From assembly GCA_024276075.1 (NCBI GenBank), contig JAJRXX010000017.1:1-64000 (forward strand): DNA of 64,000 bases. The letters are read 5' to 3'. The notes beneath the pieces are model-generated. The model did no database searches. It was given only the letters and a program-made list of their open reading frames with translations, and was not told the DNA's origin. The DNA is from Planctomycetota bacterium (GTDB lineage Bacteria > Planctomycetota > Phycisphaerae > Phycisphaerales > Phycisphaeraceae). Below, piece by piece: positions 7,608 to 23,676 of the stretch; position 1 is the stretch's first letter; every line of letters begins with the position of its first letter. A program made the translations under genes and the position numbers.

Positions 7608-8369
7608 TCAGCTTGTTTTACAGTTTTGCCCTTTGCACATGCTCACGATCATCGTTCTGCCGAACAGTATTGCCATGGAAAAGGTATGCTCGTAGGCGCG
7701 TCGTAGCGCCGCGTGGTCTTCCCGGTCGGGTGGTGCGAGGATCATGCCCCGCGCCCATAGTCTGCCCAGCGGGTAGACCAATAGCCAAAGGGGCAGCAGC
7801 ATTTTTTTCTTGAATCGGTCGGTCGCCACAGCGGTGATCTCCAGGCTGTGGTGCTGGGCGATGTACCTAAGTTGGTGGTACGACACAGGCGAGATATGCC
7901 CGGGGTCGCGGGGTTGGCCCAGCTCGATGCGCGTCGCGTTTTTCGGGGCGTGGTGGTAGAGCGTGCCCGTCAACAGGAACGACACCCTCGAGTGCATGTT
8001 CATGACGTTCGGCGTTGACAGCACGATCTGCCCGCCGGGCTTGACCACCCGTGCCAACTCGCCGATCAGGTGAAACGGGTCGAGGATGTGCTCGATCCCT
8101 TCCAGACAAGTCACCAGATCGAAGCTCGCGTCGTCGAACGGCAGCGTCTTGTTGAGGTCCGCAGCCACGAAGTCGGGGCGGTCCCGATTGATGTCGGCAC
8201 AAGTGACCTTGTAGCCTTTTTGTGCCAGCGCATCGCCGAAGTGACCCGCGCCAGCCGGCACGTCTAACGCCGATTGCGAGCCATCTGCGTCGGGTATGAG
8301 CCGTAGCGCCTCGCGCATGTAGGTGGTGAATTTATCGCGGTGGGTAAAGTCGGGGTGCTTGCGCGGCAT
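7608..8369 (-). CDS. Class I SAM-dependent methyltransferase
   Basis: This 253-residue protein belongs to the methyltransferase type 11 group. SAM-binding motif I is LDVPAGAGHFGDAL (residues 35-48). It is followed by the acidic motif II at ADINRD, the FDLVTCLEGIEHI segment (motif IV) and VVKPGGQIVLSTPN (motif VI). The C-terminal 80 residues contain a hydrophobic stretch (LLPLWLLVYPLG) that may contact membrane or lipid. The methyl acceptor cannot be read from the sequence; small molecules, lipids or sugars are all possible. It is a single gene between msrA and the RAYT locus. Confidence 0.8.
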   Translation of the reverse strand: MPRKHPDFTHRDKFTTYMREALRLIPDADGSQSALDVPAGAGHFGDALAQKGYKVTCADINRDRPDFVAADLNKTLPFDDASFDLVTCLEGIEHILDPFHLIGELARVVKPGGQIVLSTPNVMNMHSRVSFLLTGTLYHHAPKNATRIELGQPRDPGHISPVSYHQLRYIAQHHSLEITAVATDRFKKKMLLPLWLLVYPLGRLWARGMILAPPDREDHAALRRAYEHTFSMAILFGRTMIVSMCKGQNCKTS

Positions 8370-13121: not shown

Positions 13122-13499
13122 GGGGCCGACCGGCATCGACCGGACAGGGAAGGTTTGTCGTGGCACGCCCAGGTGTACGTAGGCCTGGTTAAACAACGTA
13201 CAAAATTTTAATTGCCGACAACACTGTTGTTGGTCGGATCGGGTTTGATACCCCGGTTCGCCTGGCTGCTTAATATACAGCCACGTCTCTAGGCGGTTTG
13301 TCTGTGACCGTTTAGGGGCGAATGATTAGCAGGCTCGCCCGCTGACGGGGTCCAAGCGTCAGGGGGTCAAACTTACTTGGGCTGGGTTAGGCTCACGCTG
13401 TCGCTGGCGGGGGCACGACCGAGATTAAAGCAACGACTATGCGTGTAGAGGCGGTAAGCTGACTGTTACGGGACGGGGGTTCGATTCCCCCCGGCTCCA
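13122..13499 (+). ncRNA. ssrA: tmRNA
   Basis: Transfer-messenger RNA rescues ribosomes stalled on broken mRNAs and tags the nascent peptide for degradation. The 5' end GGGGCCG (13122-13128) pairs with CGGCTCC (13492-13498) to form a seven-base acceptor stem; the discriminator A is 13499 and CCA is not encoded. The T-arm GGTTCGATTCC is intact. The reading frame resumes at GCC 13214 and stops at TAA 13271, giving the tag ADNTVVGRIGFDTPVRLAA. It has the expected -LAA end but is 19 codons long, about twice the usual length. GC-rich pseudoknot-like segments follow at about 13290-13420. The last 35 bases are the attachment site of the integrative element. Confidence 0.93.
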
Positions 13500-14756
13500 T
13501 CCTATTTGTTTGTAAGGACTTATGGAATTATTCCGCAAGTCTTCGCAACGACTCGAAATGCGGTCATCGGCTATGCCGGTGGCCGTTTTTTGTTTCGGGG
13601 CGTTGCGGCTCGGTTCGTGCGCCTTCTGCACCGGATTCTGCACCGCTTTTATTGTGGCCATTTCGGCTGCCCGCTGGAACAACTCATCCGGCACGTCGTT
13701 GGCATAGTGACGACCACTGACGGTGATGCTGTGGCCGATCCACTTGCTCACTGCGTACTGCGGGAATCGCATCGCCATTTCTTTTTCGCAGGATTGGCGT
13801 AGCGTCTGCCAAAGCCGCGCCCACGGTTCGACGCTCGCTCGTTTCCAGATAGCCCGTACTTGCCGAATCACCGCGCCCTTGCCCCTGATGGCCACAAGGT
13901 GCTGCTGGCCTTCGTCGCATTCGTCGAAACGATCTTGCAGCAATTTCATCAGCTTTGGCGTGACAGGTACGATCCGCTGTTCATGGCCGGTGTGGTGTTC
14001 GGTCTTGGGCGATCGTACCGTCAGTCGCGACCGTTCCCAATCCACATCTGCCCAAGACAACAGATGCGATTCGGAAGGAATCCGCAGGCCCACATATCGC
14101 GCTAACCCGAACAACAATTTCCATTCAGCGTTTGGACAAGCGTCAATGATCCGGTCGATTTCATCGGGGGTGACATATCGTTTGTGTCGGCTCGGCGTCG
14201 GCCCGGATTTCAGGTGCTGGAAGGGATTGTCCGAGACAAGCTCGCGCCTGACGGCTTCTTCGGCCATCGTTTTGGCATTACCACAGTGCGTTTTGATAGC
14301 CGCTTCGCTGAGTTTTTGTGTCTTCATCCACTGACGCCAATCGGCTGCCTGTTCCACCGTGATCGCCCGCAGCGGGGTCTGTGGATCGTAGTAAGCCAAC
14401 AGCTTGTCTTTGGTCTGCCGCAGTTTTCGCAGGCTTTCCGGCTTTAGTTCCCCTTCTCGGTCCGACAGGTATCGGTCAAGCCATCCTTGTAGCGTTGTAT
14501 GGTTGCGGTGGGATGTTAGCCCTGCCCGCGCCAATTTATTGATCATGGGATCATCCAATCCAGCCAGCCAGCGAGACACTTCATCACTAGGTGCGTGGCC
14601 AGTTATTTTCGCGGCGACAAGGTTTTCAACTTTCACACGAACCGATTCAGCCTGTCGCATTGAAAGCTTGCCCAAGCGGATACTACGCCGCTTGCCATCG
14701 TTGCCTACAAACTGGATGATTCTTCGTCCATTATTTTCACTGCTGATGCTCGCCAT
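13437..14756 (-). CDS. int: Tyrosine recombinase (integrase)
   Basis: This 439-residue site-specific recombinase integrates the element at ssrA. The N-terminal SAM-like core-binding domain is at about 60-190. Catalytic residues visible in the C-terminal domain are Arg in YVGLRIPSE (near 222), Lys in KTEHHTG, Arg in TLRQS (near 318), His in WIGHS, and the nucleophilic Tyr in GRHYAND (near 350). The usual His of HxxR appears replaced (WQTLR). The last 21 residues (from SRGESNPRP) are read through attL into ssrA and end at 13437. In the excised circle the frame would instead continue into the tail coded at 23041-23231. It is preceded by an XRE gene three bases upstream and likely co-transcribed with it. 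Confidence 0.9.
   Translation of the reverse strand: MASISSENNGRRIIQFVGNDGKRRSIRLGKLSMRQAESVRVKVENLVAAKITGHAPSDEVSRWLAGLDDPMINKLARAGLTSHRNHTTLQGWLDRYLSDREGELKPESLRKLRQTKDKLLAYYDPQTPLRAITVEQAADWRQWMKTQKLSEAAIKTHCGNAKTMAEEAVRRELVSDNPFQHLKSGPTPSRHKRYVTPDEIDRIIDACPNAEWKLLFGLARYVGLRIPSESHLLSWADVDWERSRLTVRSPKTEHHTGHEQRIVPVTPKLMKLLQDRFDECDEGQQHLVAIRGKGAVIRQVRAIWKRASVEPWARLWQTLRQSCEKEMAMRFPQYAVSKWIGHSITVSGRHYANDVPDELFQRAAEMATIKAVQNPVQKAHEPSRNAPKQKTATGIADDRISSRCEDLRNNSISPYKQIGWSRGESNPRPVTVSLPPLHA
13466..13500 (+). other. attL, 35-bp core of integrative element
   Basis: Thirty-five bases identical to 23232-23266, covering the T-arm and acceptor 3' strand of ssrA. Because the 3' end of ssrA is kept here, the RNA gene stays intact after insertion. 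Confidence 0.92.
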
Positions 14757-14759
14757 AAA

Positions 14760-14969
14760 TCACTGTCCTTTCTGCCGCCGTTTGGATACGGGCCGGATTT
14801 CCAGGTTAAGGGCTTCAAGTATCTTTCGCAGTGTCTCAGCGTTCACGTCTCGTTTCCCGGTCAGGTATTCGCTAATCCGAACTTGGTGTATGCCGGTCAA
14901 CTGTTGCAGCCGAAGCTGAGTGATGCCCTCCTTTGTCATCCGATCGCTGATGATCGCCCTAATATCCAT
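14760..14969 (-). CDS. XRE-family HTH regulator beside integrase
   Basis: This 69-residue DNA-binding protein has a Cro/CI-type helix-turn-helix: ITQLRLQQLTGIHQVRISEYLTG, then VNAETLRKILEALNLEI. A start at 14969 (MDIRAII) is chosen because a consensus -10 lies only six bases upstream, implying a leaderless message. An in-frame ATG at 14987 lies on the far side of that -10. The stop is three bases before the integrase start, so the two form an operon. It probably regulates its own promoter and hence integrase level. Confidence 0.8.
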   Translation of the reverse strand: MDIRAIISDRMTKEGITQLRLQQLTGIHQVRISEYLTGKRDVNAETLRKILEALNLEIRPVSKRRQKGQ

Positions 14970-14975
14970 TTTCGC

Positions 14976-15003
14976 ATTATAACACATATGATATATAAGT
15001 CAA
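14976..15003 (-). promoter_or_regulatory. Consensus promoter for XRE-int operon
   Basis: On the minus strand, TTGACT (14998-15003) and TATAAT (14976-14981) are separated by 16 bases. The -10 ends six bases before the ATG at 14969, so transcription should start at or next to the start codon, giving a leaderless mRNA. Confidence 0.65.
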
Positions 15004-15012
15004 TCCTATGAG

Positions 15013-15921
15013 TCAATCAAATTGCGCATCCGCAATCTCGTCAACGCTTAGGAACATGACATCATCAACAAACACACCATGCTCGTTCCACCCGACGCGG
15101 CAGCCGCTGAGGTCCCTACCATTGATTTTCGTGAACCGAACGGACTGAAACGCCTTGGAGACTTCCTCCGGAGTCGTGGGTTTGGGAAAGTCGGCCTTCG
15201 ATTCAAGGAGGCGGATCAAGTAGCCCGCTCTGTTCTGCTTATTTCTCGTTTGCGACCATAGCGTCTGAATACGGGAAACGGTCACCGACGGATCGGTTGT
15301 CAGTCTCGATAAAGCTGGTTCGGCGACACCGAGCTGAAAAAGCCTGTCTCGCACATCCTGGTCGCCTTGACCCAACGTGCAATCATCAACAGCATCCTGT
15401 TGTTGTGTTTCTTTGTTCTTTTTTTCTTGTAATACTTTGTGTTCGTCTACGCGCACATGGCTAGACCGCCTAGGCGCACACGGCTGGGCCGCCGTGGCGG
15501 ACATGGACTCACCATGTTCGCCTACGCGCACATGGGGCTTGTTGGCAGCGGGCTTTCTGCGGCTGTCCAGCTTGGCCACGATGGCGTCAACGACCGCAGG
15601 ATCGCTCACGTCCGCTAGGTCGTAGTGGGTGTTGAGGATGATTCCGTTGTGTGATCGCCGCGGCTTGCGTTTGGCAAGGCCAAGAGCTACAAGACCTCCG
15701 AGGGCCTCGTTGGTCGCGGATTTTTCTAGTCCAGCAATTTTCATGATTCGCTCTTGGCTGGGTTCAACGTTGGGCAGATGACTCGCCAGGGCCGGATAGA
15801 CCGCTTTCTCTCCTGAACGCAGGAGAGACCATATACGGCCCATGAACAACGGGGGTAGATGGACGTACCCCGTACTGCCTACGGTCGATCCTGAGCGGTT
15901 CTGGCGGGGCTGCGGCCTCAC
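15013..15921 (-). CDS. Winged-helix protein, possible replication initiator
   Basis: This 302-residue protein has an N-terminal winged-helix-like segment (about 20-100: GYVHLPPLFMGRIWSLLRSG...ERIMKIAGLEKSATNEALGGLVALGLA). This resembles HTH domains found in plasmid and phage replication initiators. The centre (about 125-185) is low complexity and holds two HVRVxEH copies. The C-terminal third has VSRIQTLWSQTRNKQNRAGYLIRLLE, seen in island-borne replication-like proteins. Its ATG overlaps the stop of the upstream excisionase gene by four bases (ATGA), so the two are translationally coupled. A role in element replication is inference. Confidence 0.55.
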   Translation of the reverse strand: MRPQPRQNRSGSTVGSTGYVHLPPLFMGRIWSLLRSGEKAVYPALASHLPNVEPSQERIMKIAGLEKSATNEALGGLVALGLAKRKPRRSHNGIILNTHYDLADVSDPAVVDAIVAKLDSRRKPAANKPHVRVGEHGESMSATAAQPCAPRRSSHVRVDEHKVLQEKKNKETQQQDAVDDCTLGQGDQDVRDRLFQLGVAEPALSRLTTDPSVTVSRIQTLWSQTRNKQNRAGYLIRLLESKADFPKPTTPEEVSKAFQSVRFTKINGRDLSGCRVGWNEHGVFVDDVMFLSVDEIADAQFD

Positions 15922-16127
15922 CGCTCGATCCTCTTCGCCTGCTCAATGAATGATCGCAAATCCGCTGGGTCGATCCTGACCGACCGACCAAAACGCACTG
16001 CCGGTAACTCGCCACAGTCAACTAGCTTCCATACTGTCCGGGCTGTCACACTGAGCAAGTCGGCTGCCTCGCTGTAGGTCAGCAGACGTTCGACGACGGG
16101 GACCGGTGTTCGGGAATGCTCAGTCAC
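15918..16127 (-). CDS. Excisionase-type helix-turn-helix protein
   Basis: This 69-residue protein matches the short MerR-like excisionase DNA-binding domain (HTH_17): LLTYSEAADLLSVTARTVWKLVDCGELPAVRFG, then SVRIDPADLRSFI. Such proteins bend DNA near att sites and direct recombination toward excision, or regulate transcription. It overlaps its upstream neighbour by eight bases and its downstream neighbour by four, forming a tight three-gene operon. Confidence 0.8.
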   Translation of the reverse strand: MTEHSRTPVPVVERLLTYSEAADLLSVTARTVWKLVDCGELPAVRFGRSVRIDPADLRSFIEQAKRIER

Positions 16128-16335
16128 GGCCCCCTCCTTCTTGTTGTACCCTTCTGGCGGTTTGTCGTTGTTTCAGTGCGCTCACAGCGGCTGGCAACTC
16201 AAAGCGGATGACCTTGGGTGATAGCTGCACTCGTGGGATCAGGCCACGCCTTGCCCAGACACGTACCGTGTCGGGCTTGACGTGCAGGCGGTTGGCCAGT
16301 TCATCGGCGGTCAGAAGGTCGATTGAATCAGACAT
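16120..16335 (-). CDS. Second MerR-like HTH protein
   Basis: This 71-residue protein has the same general fold as its neighbour: LLTADELANRLHVKPDTVRVWARRGLIPRVQLSPKVIRFE. The sequence is diverged, so this is not a recent duplication. It is the first gene of the operon at 15013-16335. It may regulate the operon or share excisionase function. The upstream GCGCATA repeats at 16386-16455 are candidate binding sites. Confidence 0.75.
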   Translation of the reverse strand: MSDSIDLLTADELANRLHVKPDTVRVWARRGLIPRVQLSPKVIRFELPAAVSALKQRQTARRVQQEGGGRD

Positions 16336-16385
16336 GTCAGAATGCTCCGGGTTAGATAACGAAAACTGGTTCCCTTCCTAACCCG

Positions 16386-16455
16386 GCGCATATGCGCAAA
16401 TGGCCGCGCATACCGCGCGCATAGCTCTGTAAAACAGTGGCTTAAAACGCGCATA
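16386..16455. promoter_or_regulatory. Helically phased GCGCATA direct repeats
   Basis: Four direct copies of GCGCATA start at 16386, 16406, 16417 and 16449. The spacings of 20, 11 and 32 bases are close to two, one and three helical turns. The first copy is part of the perfect palindrome GCGCATATGCGC (16386-16397). They lie in the 148-bp gap upstream of the HTH operon. They could be an operator, excisionase sites or replication iterons. Confidence 0.5.
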
Positions 16456-16483
16456 GTTAATTTAATAGTGGGGAAAACGTAGC

Positions 16484-17818
16484 TTAGTCGTTGTCCGAAT
16501 CGCGGTGATTGTGAAGATGATCTCGCTGGCGTAGCGTGCGTCCGTCGGTCCGTTTTCCCAACTCGATGGCCTTAGGATCGACGATAGTTGGCTTATTAGC
16601 CAGTTCCGAGAAATTTGGCGGCGTTCCGCCCCCATTGATGAACGCTTCAACCTTCGTGAGGGATCGCGATATCGAACCCTGATCGATCGGAATGCCTCGT
16701 TCGGTGAGATATGTTGACAATTCCGTCTGATTTGTAATGCCCGTAACGCGACGGGCTTCCCAGACTTGAAAGTCTTTTACGCTTGGACGTTTGGGCGGCT
16801 GTGCCTTGGGTAAATCCGAGTCGGCGCTTCCACGACTTTCGGTAGGGAGATTTTTTCTGGGGGTATTTGGTAGCCGAGCCGCCGCAACGCGCAGACGTTC
16901 AGCCAACTTTTCTGCGCGCATGGCTAGAACGAAAGTCTTGCCTAACGATTCTTCATAATCATCTCGGCCCTCTTTGAATTCACCCGCTATTTTTGAAAAC
17001 TCACAAAACAGGTATTGAAAATCCTCCTGCCAGCGAGGAGCCATATCCGGCAGTTCGTCGAGCAACAAGTCAATTTCGTGCGCGATCTCAAAATGCACAG
17101 CAATTCCAGCAACTATATGTGGCGGAAGTTCTCCCGACACCAAGCATTTGAGATTGAATAGAACGCTCTGTGCAACGTTGTTATTCGCCCACTTCGGGTC
17201 ATCGGGCGTCAGGCACACCCCGACCTTTAGGGCATACTTCTCCAAGGAATCTACGATCAACTGCAACCGTACAGGCAGGCTTCGTTTTTTCTCGTCTGGC
17301 CGTGTTACCCATGCCTTGCGACACAGGTCCAACCACTCTTGCCAATCGACAGCATTCGGCAAGACTATCTGCGCCCACAATCGTGAGAACTTCTCGTCGC
17401 GGTCGTCCTCCCAATCCCATTCCTGAAACTCACACAGCCTGGGAATAAATCCGTGAGCATCCTCATCGGTTAACAACCAGCAAAGAAGTAACACACGGGA
17501 AGAAACTTCCCATGTAGACGCTGTTATCAAGACACTGTCACGTTGCAGAAAATCACCGACCGCTTCGATGAGCCGACTGAACTTGCCTTCAACGATCCGT
17601 CTTTCGCGTAGCTCGAACTTATAATCCGGATGATGTGTGGAGACTTCGCGGTTATCGCGATCGACCTTCTCCACCTCTCGCCGCCAGCACGCTTCATCGC
17701 TGTATTCTCGATCTAGCCACTGGCCAGCGGACCGGTAGAGGTGCGGATTAGACCGCACGTGCTGGTTTAGTTCATGCAAAAATCGAACTTCGTCAACCGT
17801 TGGCTCGTAATCGGCCAT
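16484..17818 (-). CDS. Unknown island protein with C-terminal HTH-like segment
   Basis: I do not recognise this 444-residue protein. It is acidic and Trp-rich, predicted mostly helical, with no signal peptide and no enzyme motif. Residues about 350-395 (VWEARRVTGITNQTELSTYLTERGIPIDQGSISRSL) look like a helix-turn-helix or recombinase-adapter segment, followed by a disordered polar tail. AGGTG sits seven bases before the ATG. It lies between the HTH operon and another unknown gene in the element. A regulatory, defence or replication role are all possible. Confidence 0.6.
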   Translation of the reverse strand: MADYEPTVDEVRFLHELNQHVRSNPHLYRSAGQWLDREYSDEACWRREVEKVDRDNREVSTHHPDYKFELRERRIVEGKFSRLIEAVGDFLQRDSVLITASTWEVSSRVLLLCWLLTDEDAHGFIPRLCEFQEWDWEDDRDEKFSRLWAQIVLPNAVDWQEWLDLCRKAWVTRPDEKKRSLPVRLQLIVDSLEKYALKVGVCLTPDDPKWANNNVAQSVLFNLKCLVSGELPPHIVAGIAVHFEIAHEIDLLLDELPDMAPRWQEDFQYLFCEFSKIAGEFKEGRDDYEESLGKTFVLAMRAEKLAERLRVAAARLPNTPRKNLPTESRGSADSDLPKAQPPKRPSVKDFQVWEARRVTGITNQTELSTYLTERGIPIDQGSISRSLTKVEAFINGGGTPPNFSELANKPTIVDPKAIELGKRTDGRTLRQRDHLHNHRDSDND

Positions 17819-17928
17819 GAATCACCTGCTCATTCGGGCTGGCGGGGACATGCCGCAGCGCAGGTGAGAACTACCGCATCACCCCCGCTCATCTAGGGCC
17901 GGGGATCAGCCGACCGCCCGATACCATA

Positions 17929-18396
17929 TTACACGCCGTTTCGAGAAGTGTTAAGCTGGTTAGACTCCACTGCAAGCTGCTGATTGATGTTCTCCCACCA
18001 CCGGTTCACGAAGCCCAGCATCCCGCGCCCAAATCCGCACCCATCATCACCCAGTGCAACGAGCCTTCGACTCCATTTCTCCATATCAAGTATCGCGCGG
18101 AGCATCCTGTCAGGTGATCTCTTGTCATGTAGTAGCATGTGGTAAAGGTACGCCTTGTCATACCGCAGCATGGCCATGCAAAGGCGAAACGTCGCTATAG
18201 GTTTATTTTCAATCTGGACAATATCCGGATTCTGAACATAATCCCCAACGCGGATCGCATTGGCCGCGCTTCGCCGCTTGCCCATTCCCGTTCGCGGTCC
18301 GGTTGACCGCTGCCACGGTTTGGTACGACGGATCGTCCTCCGCAGCTTGCGGCGGCCAGCCTTCGATAAGCGGTATTCTCGTCGGAACTTAACCAT
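17929..18396 (-). CDS. Small basic protein, STGPRT-motif family
   Basis: This is a 155-residue protein of unknown function. The N-terminal 50 residues are very basic (RRKLRRTIRRTKPWQRSTGPRT, then GKRRSAANAIR). The STGPRT...GK..SA.NA pattern recurs, from memory, in small hypothetical proteins of planctomycete islands. The C-terminal half is helical and contains FVNRWWENINQQ. Nucleic-acid binding is a guess from charge only. It is separated from its upstream neighbour on the same strand by about 110 bases. Confidence 0.5.
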   Translation of the reverse strand: MVKFRREYRLSKAGRRKLRRTIRRTKPWQRSTGPRTGMGKRRSAANAIRVGDYVQNPDIVQIENKPIATFRLCMAMLRYDKAYLYHMLLHDKRSPDRMLRAILDMEKWSRRLVALGDDGCGFGRGMLGFVNRWWENINQQLAVESNQLNTSRNGV

Positions 18397-18497
18397 GCTT
18401 CACGCCCTATCTTAGTTCGTTCTAGGGATGCCCGTCGGGTATAGTTTACGTTCGCCAAAATGATTCTGTGTCGCGACCTTGACTGAATCAATCGCTT

Positions 18498-18584
18498 TTA
18501 AACATCGAATACCTTAAGCACATCATCGCCGTAGTGGTTGATGACCTTGACGGCGATATTGCCACTCTTAATCGGGTCAGACAG
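18498..18584 (-). pseudogene. C-terminal fragment of a DNA methyltransferase-like gene
   Basis: Twenty-eight codons ending in TAA encode SDPIKSGNIAVKVINHYGD and then DVLKVFDV. This closely matches the C-terminal end commonly seen in large site-specific DNA methyltransferases or type III-like restriction-modification proteins. An in-frame TGA at 18585-18587 and loss of all upstream similarity mark it as a remnant. It suggests the element once carried another modification system. Confidence 0.5.
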
Positions 18585-18761
18585 TCAGTAGGCAGATATC
18601 ATCGCGGGTGCAGTTGCGGATTGATCACAGGCTGGGGTCAATTACACTCGTCTGGTGTTACTACCGAAACAGGGAAAGGAAGTAGGAAGAGGGATAATCG
18701 CAAACCTTCGCTGCACAACATCACCTCTGAAGACCTTCGCGGTACTGATTGGCTGTTTTAG

Positions 18762-18986
18762 CTTTACCGGAAAGCCGTGCAACATGGTTTGGCCAGCGAT
18801 AGTGATGCCGCCAGAGATGAGCGGTTTGTGTTGGCGTGCATCAAGGTCGGCAAGCACACAGACGCGATCCGACCAGACCAAGTAATGTTGGGAAGCCGCC
18901 TACATAGCCTACCAGCGGAAGGAGCGGATGCGAGGGCAGTAACGTGTCCGACAGCCAAACTCTACTTACAGTCTGTAGACTTATAG
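18762..18986 (+). pseudogene. Possible decayed gene fragment
   Basis: The frame reads LYRKAVQHGLASDSDAARDE and continues FVLACIKVGKHTDA. It resembles the helical C-terminal part of proteins found in other planctomycete islands, from memory. A TAG at 18759 breaks the frame and no start is present. Otherwise 18590-18960 contains nothing I recognise. Confidence 0.25.
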
Positions 18987-19000
18987 GCTCCATAGATTAG
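18971..19000 (+). promoter_or_regulatory. Candidate C-box of controller protein
   Basis: GACTTATAGGC (18978-18988), preceded by the inverted pair AGTCT-GT-AGACT (18970-18981), resembles published C-boxes (GACTTATAGTC) of restriction-modification controller genes. It lies immediately before the ATG at 19001, where autoregulatory boxes are expected. Confidence 0.45.
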
Positions 19001-19312
19001 ATGATAGACAAGTCAGCGCTAATCGGGTTCGTCTCAATGCAACATCGACTGGTTAGAAAAAAACCAAGCAAGCGACTGGTGAAATTGCTTGCGAGCAATG
19101 TACGGGTGCTGCGACACGCCCAAGGTGTGTCGCAGGAAGAGCTGGCCGCACGCTGCGGCCTGCATCGCACCTATGTCGGGTCGATTGAGCGAGGTGAGCG
19201 CAACGCGACGCTGAGCACTCTTGAGGTTCTGGCCTCGGTGCTGGGTATCACGGTTCCGCAGCTTCTTACTCCTCAGAGACCCCATGACACCAAATCAGAC
19301 CCCGCAAATTGA
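19001..19312 (+). CDS. Restriction-modification controller protein (XRE)
   Basis: This 103-residue protein (91 if the ATG at 19037 is used) has a Cro/CI HTH typical of C proteins: VSQEELAARCGLHRTYVGSI, then ERGERNATLSTLEVLASVLGI. C proteins bind C-boxes and delay restriction enzyme expression until the host DNA is methylated. The gene overlaps the nuclease start by 29 bases, as usual for C-R operons, and a C-box-like sequence sits directly upstream. The closeness of that box to the first ATG makes a leaderless transcript likely. Confidence 0.8.
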   Translation: MIDKSALIGFVSMQHRLVRKKPSKRLVKLLASNVRVLRHAQGVSQEELAARCGLHRTYVGSIERGERNATLSTLEVLASVLGITVPQLLTPQRPHDTKSDPAN

Positions 19313-20345
19313 CCCAAGTCATTTCAAAAAAGCGATCTCTGGCAGTGGGCTGTCGATCTACGACCCCATCGAGATCGGCGATCCGAACCTTTGGATTCCC
19401 ACCGCCGAACTTGAACACCTGCTCAATGATGAACTGCAAGGCCTATCGCTTGCGGACCTGGCGTTGAGAACCCGGTCCAAGGTCGTCAAAGAGCATGTTT
19501 GCCGCGCTCTGGGCTACCCGGTGCCGAAGTCTTTCAAGAAAACGCAGCCGCGATTCAAGGGCCAAAATTTCGACACCTATGTTCAGAAGGCCAATAACCT
19601 TCAGATTTGGAACGAAGAACTTTCACCGAGCCGTCGTTACGTAATCATTCGCGTGAATGAGCAGGGCGACATCACTCGGGTGAAGGTTGTGACCGGAGAC
19701 ATGCTCGCGGTGCTCGACACCACCGGCACGCTCACTCAGAAATATCAGGCCCGCTGCATCGTCGGAGATACTCCGTACGAGCTGGTTGATTCGGCCGACA
19801 CGGACTTACTGGCCCCCTTCGTCTCTGGAGATGTGGACTTGGGCCGAGTCGCGACGCCCGTCAGTTATCCTAAGAGTGCTCAGTTGCTACCGATCGCTGA
19901 CGCCTACGATAGTCTTAAGCCCTTGGTGGGGAGGTGTTTTGCTGACCTCGGAATCGGCCAGGAGCGAAACAGAGGCGCGGCGCTGCACCGTCTCGTATGC
20001 GAGGCGCTGGGGTATGCGGGTTATCAAGATGATGGCCAATTCCCAGACGTGCGTCATCAGTTGATCGAGATCAAGTTGCAAACATCACCGACGATCGATC
20101 TTGGCCTGGTATGTCCCGACAGCACGGAGCCGCTCGACGTACCTCAGATCGATGGCCAAGTCATCCGACACTGCGATGTTCGCTACGCTGTCTTTTATGG
20201 CACCACCGATGGCCAAGAAGTTACGCTCACACATTTTATCTTGACCACAGGAGAGGCCTTCTTTAAGCGGTTTCAGAAGTTCCAAGGCAAGGTCTTGAAC
20301 AAGAAGCTACAAATCCCGCTGCCGTCAGACTTCTTCGACGGGTAG
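19284..20345 (+). CDS. Type II restriction endonuclease
   Basis: This 353-residue protein is inferred to be the nuclease of the module. A PD-(D/E)XK-type core is visible: FPD255VRHQLIE262IK264 gives Asp, Glu and Lys in the usual spacing. The N-terminal 120 residues may contact DNA or dimerise. The start at 19284 (MTPNQTPQ) is chosen because upstream codons overlap the controller gene in another frame. It converges with the methyltransferase gene and overlaps it by 21 bases. The recognition site cannot be predicted. Confidence 0.7.
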   Translation: MTPNQTPQIDPSHFKKAISGSGLSIYDPIEIGDPNLWIPTAELEHLLNDELQGLSLADLALRTRSKVVKEHVCRALGYPVPKSFKKTQPRFKGQNFDTYVQKANNLQIWNEELSPSRRYVIIRVNEQGDITRVKVVTGDMLAVLDTTGTLTQKYQARCIVGDTPYELVDSADTDLLAPFVSGDVDLGRVATPVSYPKSAQLLPIADAYDSLKPLVGRCFADLGIGQERNRGAALHRLVCEALGYAGYQDDGQFPDVRHQLIEIKLQTSPTIDLGLVCPDSTEPLDVPQIDGQVIRHCDVRYAVFYGTTDGQEVTLTHFILTTGEAFFKRFQKFQGKVLNKKLQIPLPSDFFDG

Positions 20346-22055
20346 GCCAAACGCTTCCCACACCATGTGGTTTAGTTGTTTTTCTAGTTTTAGGGCTTCC
20401 GGTGTACCCGCATTTTCGTAAATGGCCTTGGCGGTCTTGATAATCGTTTGTGCCCTAGGAGATGTGGGGTCGGGCAACGGGAACTTCTCGACGTACTGCG
20501 TGATGAACCGTCGCCGACCGGCGTAAAGCTTGTTGTTGAAGCGGTGATCGTAGAAGGTCTCGATGAACTTCGAATTGCCCACGGCTACCGCCAGCCAAAG
20601 CAGGTTTTTTTGGCGGGGGTCATCGCACACGAGCCAATAGCAATCTCCGTTGACCACCAAACCGTCGAGGTCGATCCAGAAACACGGCTCTTCGGATATG
20701 TCGCGGAACACCAGCTTCGGACGCGGCCAGGCCGCGGGGTTCTGGGGAACCCAGATTTCATACCACTGGCGGCCTGCCTCGATCACATAAGACCGACCTT
20801 CGAGTATTTCCCGGTGCTGTTCGAGATAAGCCCGCGTACGAGGGGCAGTCGTGAGGTCAATCGCCCGCTTCTTGCCGTTTAGGGCTTCGTGCGGATAAAT
20901 GATCTCTCGACGGGGATTGCCTTTGTCCGCCCGATATCGGCGGCCGATGTGGTGAGTTGTCAGAGGCTTGAGTAGTTCCGGCTGCTCGCTTTTAGGCAGG
21001 TCGCGCCAGTCGTGGCGGATGAAAACACGGTCCGCACAGGTCTTGACCCCCACGCGGACCTTCCCAAGATCACGGAACGTGCCCCAGGTGTGCTTGCGAA
21101 CCTTCGCCAGCCAAGCGTTGTTTTCTTCGGTAGCGACACGCCACACGCCGTCCACCGCGTCCGATGTGTCAAGTGTTCCCTGGATCACTTGAAAGCGGCG
21201 ACCGTCGGGAACAGCAACGACGCCCGATTTCGAGAGGGCATCGATGGCTGACGTGGCCGCTTGTGAACTGAGCTCCTTGCTCTCATAAATCGAAGTGAAA
21301 GAAGGAACGTCCGGCGGTGAACCGTTTAGCCCTTCGGCAACCAGAACGGCAGGCAATACCGCCGCATCGAAAATTTTGGTGTCCCCCAAGTCCCAGATGT
21401 GCTTGAGATTGAGCTGCTCCCTGGCGACACGCCGCACACTAGCCCCGGCCTTTGTCGTCATGAAGCGATTCGAGATGATCACGCCCGCGACCCCGTACGG
21501 GCGAAGAATCTTCGCGATCGCCAAAACAAACGCATGGTAAAGGTCAACTCGGCCGTTGAGACCAAACTGATCGGCCAACGCCTGAGCGATCTTGGCCCCC
21601 ATCACCTGCGTACGCACATAGGGCGGATTGGCGATAATCAGGTCGAATGAGGCCGGAGTTTTTGATGCGAAGAGACCGCCTTGATTCATGGCGTTGGCAT
21701 CGCCCAATACGAAGGTGAGAAAGTCTCTGCATGAGAGATGGAGCGACGCTTTCGGATTGATTGAAGCCAGGCGAGCTTCGGCAACCACTAAGGCTTTCGT
21801 GTTCTTGTCGAACCCGTACACCTCGACAGGCCGATCGTGTGGGAGTTGTTCAAGCAAGTTGACTAGCAGGGTGCCGTCACCCGCAGCCGGATCAAGAATC
21901 CGTAGCGGCTCCGCCTCGGGGGGTGTCCAGGCCTGAAGCATGGATGATGCCACGAAATCCGCCAGTTCCGCCGGTGTGTAGGTCGCACCTGTCGCCTTAG
22001 CCTCCGAGACGGAGCCGTAACGCTTAGTAAACCGTGTGGAAGGAGCGATGCTCAT
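20325..22055 (-). CDS. N6-adenine DNA methyltransferase, Eco57I/TaqI type
   Basis: This 576-residue enzyme transfers a methyl group from SAM to adenine N6, protecting element-bearing DNA from the adjacent nuclease. SAM motif I is ILDPAAGDGTLLVN (53-66). The catalytic motif is IIANPPYV (near 143), the NPPY form typical of adenine methylases. The C-terminal part (about 310-560), with PTSPRAQTIIKTAKAIYE near the end, corresponds to a TaqI-like target recognition domain. It is oriented opposite to the controller and nuclease genes, so its expression is independent. All motifs look intact, so the module is likely functional. Confidence 0.88.
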   Translation of the reverse strand: MSIAPSTRFTKRYGSVSEAKATGATYTPAELADFVASSMLQAWTPPEAEPLRILDPAAGDGTLLVNLLEQLPHDRPVEVYGFDKNTKALVVAEARLASINPKASLHLSCRDFLTFVLGDANAMNQGGLFASKTPASFDLIIANPPYVRTQVMGAKIAQALADQFGLNGRVDLYHAFVLAIAKILRPYGVAGVIISNRFMTTKAGASVRRVAREQLNLKHIWDLGDTKIFDAAVLPAVLVAEGLNGSPPDVPSFTSIYESKELSSQAATSAIDALSKSGVVAVPDGRRFQVIQGTLDTSDAVDGVWRVATEENNAWLAKVRKHTWGTFRDLGKVRVGVKTCADRVFIRHDWRDLPKSEQPELLKPLTTHHIGRRYRADKGNPRREIIYPHEALNGKKRAIDLTTAPRTRAYLEQHREILEGRSYVIEAGRQWYEIWVPQNPAAWPRPKLVFRDISEEPCFWIDLDGLVVNGDCYWLVCDDPRQKNLLWLAVAVGNSKFIETFYDHRFNNKLYAGRRRFITQYVEKFPLPDPTSPRAQTIIKTAKAIYENAGTPEALKLEKQLNHMVWEAFGLPVEEV

Positions 22056-22128
22056 GCTTGATCATCCTTGACGATTAAATCTGCTACTCAGAGTCATCTA
22101 TTTAAGCTGGGATGTCAAGCCTTAAATC

Positions 22129-22294
22129 TCACCAATCATCCGAGCCGGTGTCTTCGATGGTCGTTGCGTTGCCGCCTGAGGTGTTCTTGCGCTGCTTTGT
22201 TTTCAGGAGGGGATCATGGATTCCTCTCAACCAGTGCCCTCAGCTTGGCCTTGGCGTAATCCATGCTTATCTGCGATTCTAACTCCACGGCCAT
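22129..22294 (-). pseudogene. Degenerate small reading frames upstream of methylase
   Basis: One frame (22214-22294) reads MAVELESQISMDYAKAKLRA and continues LVERNP before a TGA. Another frame that follows reads LLKTKQRKNTSGGNATTIED and ends GSDDW at TGA 22129. Together they look like one short gene broken by a frameshift, but I cannot assign a family. The rest of 22295-22398 shows nothing. Confidence 0.25.
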
Positions 22295-22398
22295 CGTACC
22301 CCCACCCGAACCCAATCCAAAGTGTTGTTTTGCACGATCCACGCTTTGTTATGTAAATACCACCCACTATCGTCGGTAAGCATAATCGTTCGGTATAC

Positions 22399-22788
22399 TT
22401 ACGCATAACATGGAAGGCGCTGCTTTCTCCGCGTCCTTCCCATGCACAATGGATACCAGCCCTCATGCTCTCTCACCAATGGATCGTGCCTAAGTCTCGG
22501 TTCGTGATGAGTGCTTGGGGGTGTCCGGCAGACATGGGTAGGTGGATTCGGCCATCGGCACAGCCCACTTCCGGGCCGGTGCGGCCAGTTGTAGGCTGGG
22601 CAATGACAAGCGGTGTAATGTGTCCTGTATCGCCCCCAGTCGTCACGGAGTGGCCGCGTGCTGCGTCCGCCGTGGAACGCACACAGTTGTCTGTGATCGC
22701 CCCACACGGACCAACCACGGCATGGGTGTCCGTCTCGTCTGACGGCGATACAGCGGCGAAGGGCGGTCGCCTCCGGTGTGTAGCTCAT
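22399..22788 (-). CDS. Small Cys/His-rich protein
   Basis: This is a 129-residue protein of unknown function with ten cysteines. The N-terminal segment RRCIAVRRDGHPCRGWSVWG, then QLCAFHGG, has the pattern of a recurrent small zinc-finger-like domain. The later CHCPAYNWPHRPGSGLCRWP also has regular Cys/His spacing. Both segments recur, from memory, in small proteins on islands of planctomycetes and Chloroflexi. Zinc binding is inferred. It is the last gene before the right end of the element. Confidence 0.5.
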   Translation of the reverse strand: MSYTPEATALRRCIAVRRDGHPCRGWSVWGDHRQLCAFHGGRSTRPLRDDWGRYRTHYTACHCPAYNWPHRPGSGLCRWPNPPTHVCRTPPSTHHEPRLRHDPLVREHEGWYPLCMGRTRRKQRLPCYA

Positions 22789-23040
22789 ATGAAAATCTTA
22801 CCACCCGAAGCAACGAACAGTTTTTTTTGACCGAAATGTGGCCGGAGTATGGACGCCCATCTTTACCTATCGCCCGCCAACCGTTTTGGGGGGCCACCCC
22901 CTGGGTCCCCCGCATGTCGGACCCCGGACCGTGCTTCGGTGAGTACACAGACTCGGCGCGGTGTTGCGTTGTTACTTAGGGTCCCCAGCCGTATGCGTGT
23001 CGGGGGGACGCTCCCCCAATTGTCCTCGCTGATGGCCCCG

Positions 23041-23231
23041 TCACCGTTCACCCGCCGCCGTCACCATCGCTAGGATGCCCGCCTTGATCGCTTCGGGCAG
23101 CGTCGGCCAAGCGTCGATCAGACGGGTTAGATCGGGATCGTTTGGCGTCGAAATGGGGGGCACTGCACCGGATTCCGCACCGCCTGCATTCGATGCGTCG
23201 CGTAAGTCGTTGTCAGTACTGCCTTGGACAC
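23041..23231 (-). other. Alternative integrase C-terminus, coded at right end
   Basis: The minus frame running left from attR encodes SVQGSTDNDLRDASNAGGAE and later DLTRLIDAWPTLPEAIKAGI, ending LAMVTAAGER at TGA. DAWPTLPEAIKAGILAMV is a typical end of planctomycete-type integrases. After excision this segment would join in frame to the integrase at the shared att core (GTA AGT in place of GTA ACA). The 22840-23040 stretch between it and the last gene is GC-rich with short hairpins but no gene. Confidence 0.65.
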
Positions 23232-23266
23232 TTACGGGACGGGGGTTCGATTCCCCCCGGCTCCAT
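23232..23266 (+). other. attR, 35-bp core
   Basis: Exact copy of 13466-13500. Sequence differs on both sides immediately beyond it on the left, while to the right it stays similar to the integrase end, because a second integrase fragment follows. Confidence 0.9.
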
Positions 23267-23405
23267 TCATCTAAATTGCAAGGGCTTGCGGAATTATCCT
23301 GCAAGTTCTCGCAACGACTCGAAATGCGGTCATCGGCTCTGCCGGTGGCCGTTTTTTGTTGCGGGTCGTTTCTGTCGGTTTCGTGCGCCTTCTGCTGCGC
23401 CTGGC
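23267..23405 (-). pseudogene. Remnant of a second integrase gene
   Basis: The 140 bases right of attR are a diverged copy of 13501-13640. They encode QKAHETDRNDPQQKTATGRA then DDRISSRCENLQ, aligned to QKAHEPSRNAPKQKTATGIADD of the intact integrase. A run including CGCAACGACTCGAAATGCGG is identical. Similarity stops near 23405. This is the left end of another element that had used the same ssrA site in tandem and then decayed. Confidence 0.75.
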
Positions 23406-23676
23406 GCTGCGCGCTGTGCTTATGCCCTAAGCGATTCATTTAACCTTGTTGGTGGCGCAATATAGGGGTGAAGTTATCTGGGCCTTTATAGAACATGTGG
23501 GTTCAATAACACACACACGATTACGGATTAAATCCATCCTAATCGTTGCTGTTTAACAATAGGGGGATAAAGAATAGGCATTTGTGCCGCCACCACTAAA
23601 AGCTGCATAGCTACACGACGATATTGCAAATTAGCCAAAGATACCGCACATGTTCTTTACTTAGGGGAGGGGCGAT

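Follow-up and report, generated by a model that had tools for sequence, protein, structure and literature searches.

When an island carries its attachment site within the reading frame of its own integrase, does the enzyme change with the state of the element? This question is raised by a 9.8-kb island in a Planctomycetota bacterium, located in a window of 64,000 bp (the whole stretch of DNA analysed here), in which one end of the island encodes a tyrosine integrase and the other end an orphan peptide in frame with the recombination core.

The island at ssrA and the two C-termini of its integrase

The island is enclosed by an exact 35-bp direct repeat, which is the 3′ end of an intact tmRNA gene, ssrA (Table 1). 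The target-derived repeats at both ends, the intact target and the integrase inside identify it as a tmRNA-integrated genomic island, seen here in its integrated form in a draft genome of 77 contigs. The integrase was assigned to the tyrosine recombinase family by its PF00589 catalytic domain (45.3 bits against a cutoff of 27.1), and the best named matches to its family come mostly from Phycisphaerales and other Planctomycetota. The cargo at 19001-22055 corresponds to a type II restriction-modification system accompanied by a probable controller gene.

In the integrated state, the integrase frame crosses the left repeat, continues in antisense ssrA and ends WSRGESNPRPVTVSLPPLHA, the last 8 residues, beyond the core, being host-derived. 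The preliminary description of this locus had correctly placed this ending within attL/ssrA, and had further predicted that joining the two cores would extend the frame into the right end of the island by about 60 residues, the attP junction having been set beforehand as the place to look for a frame break. Joined in silico, the frame proved to be open across the junction and reaches 493 aa, ending ...NDPDLTRLIDAWPTLPEAIKAGILAMVTAAGER; beyond the core lie 63 residues, versus 8 in the integrated form (a net gain of 54), in good agreement with the prediction. Thus, the right end of the island carries the integrase's own C-terminus, referred to below as the tail.

Table 1. Features of the ssrA island and its right flank, in window coordinates
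Feature	Position	Strand	Evidence or remark
ssrA (tmRNA), intact, restored by the island; integration target	13122..13499	+	ARAGORN; Rfam RF00023 full-length match, 165.9 bits
Tyrosine integrase, integrated form, 439 aa + stop	13437..14756	-	PF00589 + PF13102
attL core, 35-bp exact repeat, ssrA 3′ end	13466..13500	.	Integrase reads through in frame
Putative integrase-side arm-type repeat, CGGTGCAG-AATC-CGGTGCAG	13623..13646	-	Inside integrase coding sequence
Small HTH_3 regulator	14760..14987	-	Adjoins integrase
HTH_17 protein, probably excisionase-like	15918..16127	-	Size and fold
HTH_17/MerR-like protein, probably excisionase-like	16120..16335	-	
HTH_3 protein, probable controller of restriction-modification cargo	19001..19312	+	Also by position
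Type II restriction enzyme, cargo	19221..20345	+	PADLOC PDLC03565, E 7.5e-147
Type II DNA methyltransferase (Eco57I-like), cargo	20325..22055	-	
Orphan integrase C-terminal tail, 63 residues + stop	23041..23231	-	In frame with core
Conserved predicted hairpin domain within the tail	23044-23142	-	
Putative tail-side arm-type repeat, CGGTGCGG-AATC-CGGTGCAG	23163..23182	-	Matches integrase-side arm
attR core, 35-bp exact repeat	23232..23266	.	
3′ remnant of a second, different integrase	23267..23439	-	Core-joined to the tail of the first element; 68% identity
Putative arm of the second integrase remnant, GCGCAGCG type	23393-23413	.	Unlike the first element

Recurrence of the in-frame split and conservation of the tail

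A survey of related elements, as suggested in the preliminary description, revealed the same split in relatives integrated at tRNA and tmRNA genes. In a survey that started from the tail and took islands readable all the way to the integrase, the core was found in the same phase at both ends in all 20 pairs scored on a tRNA/tmRNA core, the targets being tmRNA and the genes for tRNA-Lys, Tyr, Phe, Val and Ile. Two further pairs were recovered: in G103 the real core is in phase, and L131 is the sole exception, with the core out of phase; the tail frame of L131 starts past the core, so that this tail looks frameshifted. Several of the tmRNA elements are closely related, and the in-phase pairs therefore do not all represent independent events. 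Starting instead from the integrase, 99 distinct integrases were collected, 76 of which have a tRNA or tmRNA gene at the 3′ end; an in-frame tail was present in 8 of the 8 elements with attR inside the sequence examined, 6 of these tails being detected by HMM and 2 (L054 and L174), too divergent for the HMM, being read by eye. That the in-frame split recurs in further elements, both at tmRNA genes and at several tRNA genes, indicates that it is more than chance. The host-derived endings of integrated copies range from 3 to 67 residues and, being so variable, would not appear to carry any function that is conserved.

The right-end peptide of the window matches the right-end peptides of other elements, with the consensus DPDLxxLVxAWPxLPxxIRAGIVAMV, also given as xDPDLxxxIxAWPxLPxAVRAGIVAMV. 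Tails, most of them short orphan ORFs, were found in 154 of 301 related genomes; across the Planctomycetota, 94 of 392 genomes had one. These values are to be read in the light of an HMM that misses some divergent tails and of short matches near E 0.001 that may include chance hits. The tail is absent from the Pfam, NCBIfam and PHROGs catalogues, and searches of phage and plasmid collections yielded no tail match; for pattern-based comparison with IMG/VR, the tail alignment proved to be insufficiently conserved. The genome of the window itself contains two further orphan tails, L139 (G000:C61) and L141 (G000:C74), in stretches with no complete integrase on the same strand, possibly representing island relics.

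Nucleotide differences between tails fall mostly at third codon positions; pN/pS was 0.47 over 332 pairs, with pN<pS in 329 of them, the pairs being non-independent, so that it is the direction of the bias that matters. Within one close tmRNA group, pN/pS was 0.26 for the tail versus 0.076 for the catalytic part. As judged from this codon pattern, the tail is under purifying selection.

According to an AlphaFold2 model of a full-length relative (L242, which stands here for the circle form of the window's integrase), the N-terminal and catalytic parts are predicted confidently, with Tn1549 and lambda integrases as fold neighbours. Residues 383-457 have pLDDT values below 50 and are followed by two helices (457-474 and 477-494) at 83-94, so that the model shows the tail as a predicted helical hairpin on a disordered tether.

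An attachment site inside the gene and the forms that rejoin it

Of 20 elements, 19 have paired 8-bp direct repeats with a 4-bp spacing to either side of the core, compared to 0.5% of mononucleotide shuffles; the pairs usually lie near positions -145 to -155 and +42 to +45. We consider these repeats putative arm-type binding sites. Since they flank the core within the frame, the entire attP would lie inside the coding sequence. In the window, the arms on the integrase and tail sides match each other, which ties the tail to the integrase of this island.

Directly adjoining attR on the right lies the remnant of a second integrase instead of plain host DNA. This remnant appears to be the trace of an earlier tandem element; its different repeat type suggests an origin in another element. 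The 3′ parts of integrase genes core-joined to the tail of another element were found in this right flank, in L053 and in contig 2 of G103, indicating that the fused junction can arise in the chromosome too. The proposal that the full-length protein exists only from the circle is thus too strong, because tandem integration also joins integrase to tail. An apparent tandem array occupies ssrA in G103:C2 (L041, L042 and L058, 246-302 kb), in which the frame of integrase B crosses the core and continues into the tail of element A, itself frameshifted.

An ORF uniting a whole integrase with a tail was not found in redundant and almost exclusively chromosomal loci, which gave 176 ORF matches for the integrase and 104 for the tail. 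The fused gene was encountered in unintegrated virus contigs of IMG/VR, where integrase and tail form a single ORF in L242, L247, L253, L258 and others; relatives of the island thus naturally possess the predicted frame. Two short contigs have terminal repeats of the kind expected from circles: contig L253 (7355 bp) has a 69-bp terminal repeat and a fused ORF of 524 aa from stop to stop; L249 (7437 bp) has a 123-bp terminal repeat and a fused ORF of 531 aa spanning the junction. The close relatives L258, with the tail, and L260, with an antisense tRNA-Ser ending, represent the two states. Together with the conservation of the tail in relatives, the fused genes in unintegrated contigs bear out the suggestion that the right-end peptide is the natural C-terminus of the family.

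Separately, L249 and L253, both of ~7.4 kb with terminal repeats and a fused integrase, are possibly small circular elements. L257 and L258 were considered as permuted circles and rejected, as their ends did not match. The integrase of virus contigs L035/L238 has a short, different ending without a tail match; near 7800-8100, its frame crosses a core-like stretch and then reaches a stop.

A putative switch and its relation to known systems

We propose that the complete enzyme consists of the N-terminal and catalytic parts, a disordered linker that would be encoded by the att site and the C-terminal helical-hairpin tail. Recombination at the core moves the tail codons to the far end of the island and leaves the integrase with a short, arbitrary ending from antisense tmRNA. 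The tail would act while the element is free or in tandem, most likely by helping to assemble or stabilize the integrative complex, such that integration would remove a part that its own reaction needs; the enzyme lacking the tail may differ in activity until the gene is made whole again by excision, as has been reported for phage Mx8. The arrangement, which recurs in many islands across the phylum, is probably a switch built into the element that distinguishes its free state from its integrated one, and we assign a probability of roughly 0.6 to the reading in which attP lies within the integrase gene, the detachable tail functions when the element is free or in tandem and integration alters the enzyme. 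For the island in the window, a change of activity upon the swap would be expected by analogy. More tentatively, and with somewhat less than even chances, these enzymes could form a class found throughout the phylum, bacterial integrases whose conserved, detachable tail is present only while the element is excised or in tandem. This would give many planctomycete islands an inbuilt control of directionality, and the disordered att-encoded linker would allow one enzyme design to be carried from one tRNA target to another.

Peptides read from antisense tRNA, of the WSRGESNPRP type, are often mis-annotated, and GC-rich antisense tRNA or tmRNA sequence next to a chance ORF could in principle mimic the split. 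Such spurious readthrough is refuted by the cores lying in the same phase in many elements, by selection on the tail and by the fused genes in unintegrated contigs. A more serious explanation, albeit less likely than the main reading, retains the architecture and dispenses with the switch: the tail would be an ordinary C-terminus for folding, stability or tetramer formation, its loss a tolerated side effect, and attP would reside in the gene because a compact integrase-attP module travels well. The variable host-derived endings, the intact and strongly constrained catalytic part of integrated copies and the modelled position of the tail in L242, where the hairpin stands apart, held beyond the catalytic domain by a long disordered tether, are all compatible with this explanation; what it leaves unaccounted for is that the tail is kept in very many elements despite being encoded in the free or tandem state only, and that Mx8, the reported analogue, does change activity. 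The polarity could also be reversed, with the tail restraining the enzyme and the truncated, integrated form being more active or excision-competent. This would have a precedent in the repressor of mycobacteriophage BPs, the shorter, integrated form of which is active (PMC4557955); by eye, however, the tails lack a degradation-tag-like ending, and we regard such a reversal as improbable.

The switch reading finds its closest precedent in Myxococcus phage Mx8. According to a review (PMC6070905) and the title of Tojo 1996, attP of Mx8 (and Mx9) is located within the int coding sequence, and int acquires a new 3′ end upon integration but is not inactivated, an arrangement described as a molecular switch (PMC6070905). 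Likewise, in the window and its relatives the attP core lies within an integrase frame that is open across the junction, such that integration generates a recombinant gene. The Mx8 integrase has no detectable counterpart of the tail and no close kinship in sequence: it gave no significant match to the tail HMM, a best BLASTP E value of 1.0 and only 8.4 bits with the integrase HMM. In contrast to Mx8, the planctomycete elements constitute a large family with many tRNA and tmRNA targets and paired arm repeats in frame.

In archaeal suicidal integrases (SSV-type, pTN3 and pT26-2), the attachment site is likewise in the integrase gene, which is split by integration (PMC8371274). There, the split separates an N-terminal portion from the catalytic domain and is inactivating, whereas here the catalytic domain remains whole in the integrated ORF and only the C-terminal tail is lost. 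In BPs, attP is in the repressor gene and the C-terminus differs between the free and integrated forms (PMC4557955), the free form bearing a degradation tag; the gene studied here is an integrase, and its free form ends TAAGER, which was judged by eye not to be such a tag. Ordinary tRNA/tmRNA islands with tyrosine integrases share with the window's island the integrase at one end, the tRNA-derived core repeats and the restored target (PMC4383910), but have attP beside the integrase gene. The Islander work (PMC4383910) cites Mx8 and SSV as integrases extending across attP.

Mx8 thus already provides an example of an attP within the integrase gene, and the archaeal suicidal integrases provide a different form of it. 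As far as the open-access literature and the libraries show, the large planctomycete family, its conserved detachable tail and the in-frame attP with arms are new. They extend a mechanism reported for one group of myxophages to a large bacterial family, and in-gene self-disruption in bacteria contradicts the published statement that self-disrupting recombinases are exclusively archaeal (PMC8371274). Many orphan small ORFs at island ends can be explained as detached integrase tails. In practice, the tail is a marker of the distal end of islands of this kind, and integrases annotated from integrated copies are described without their natural C-terminus. With two natural forms of one enzyme to compare, directionality control becomes directly testable.
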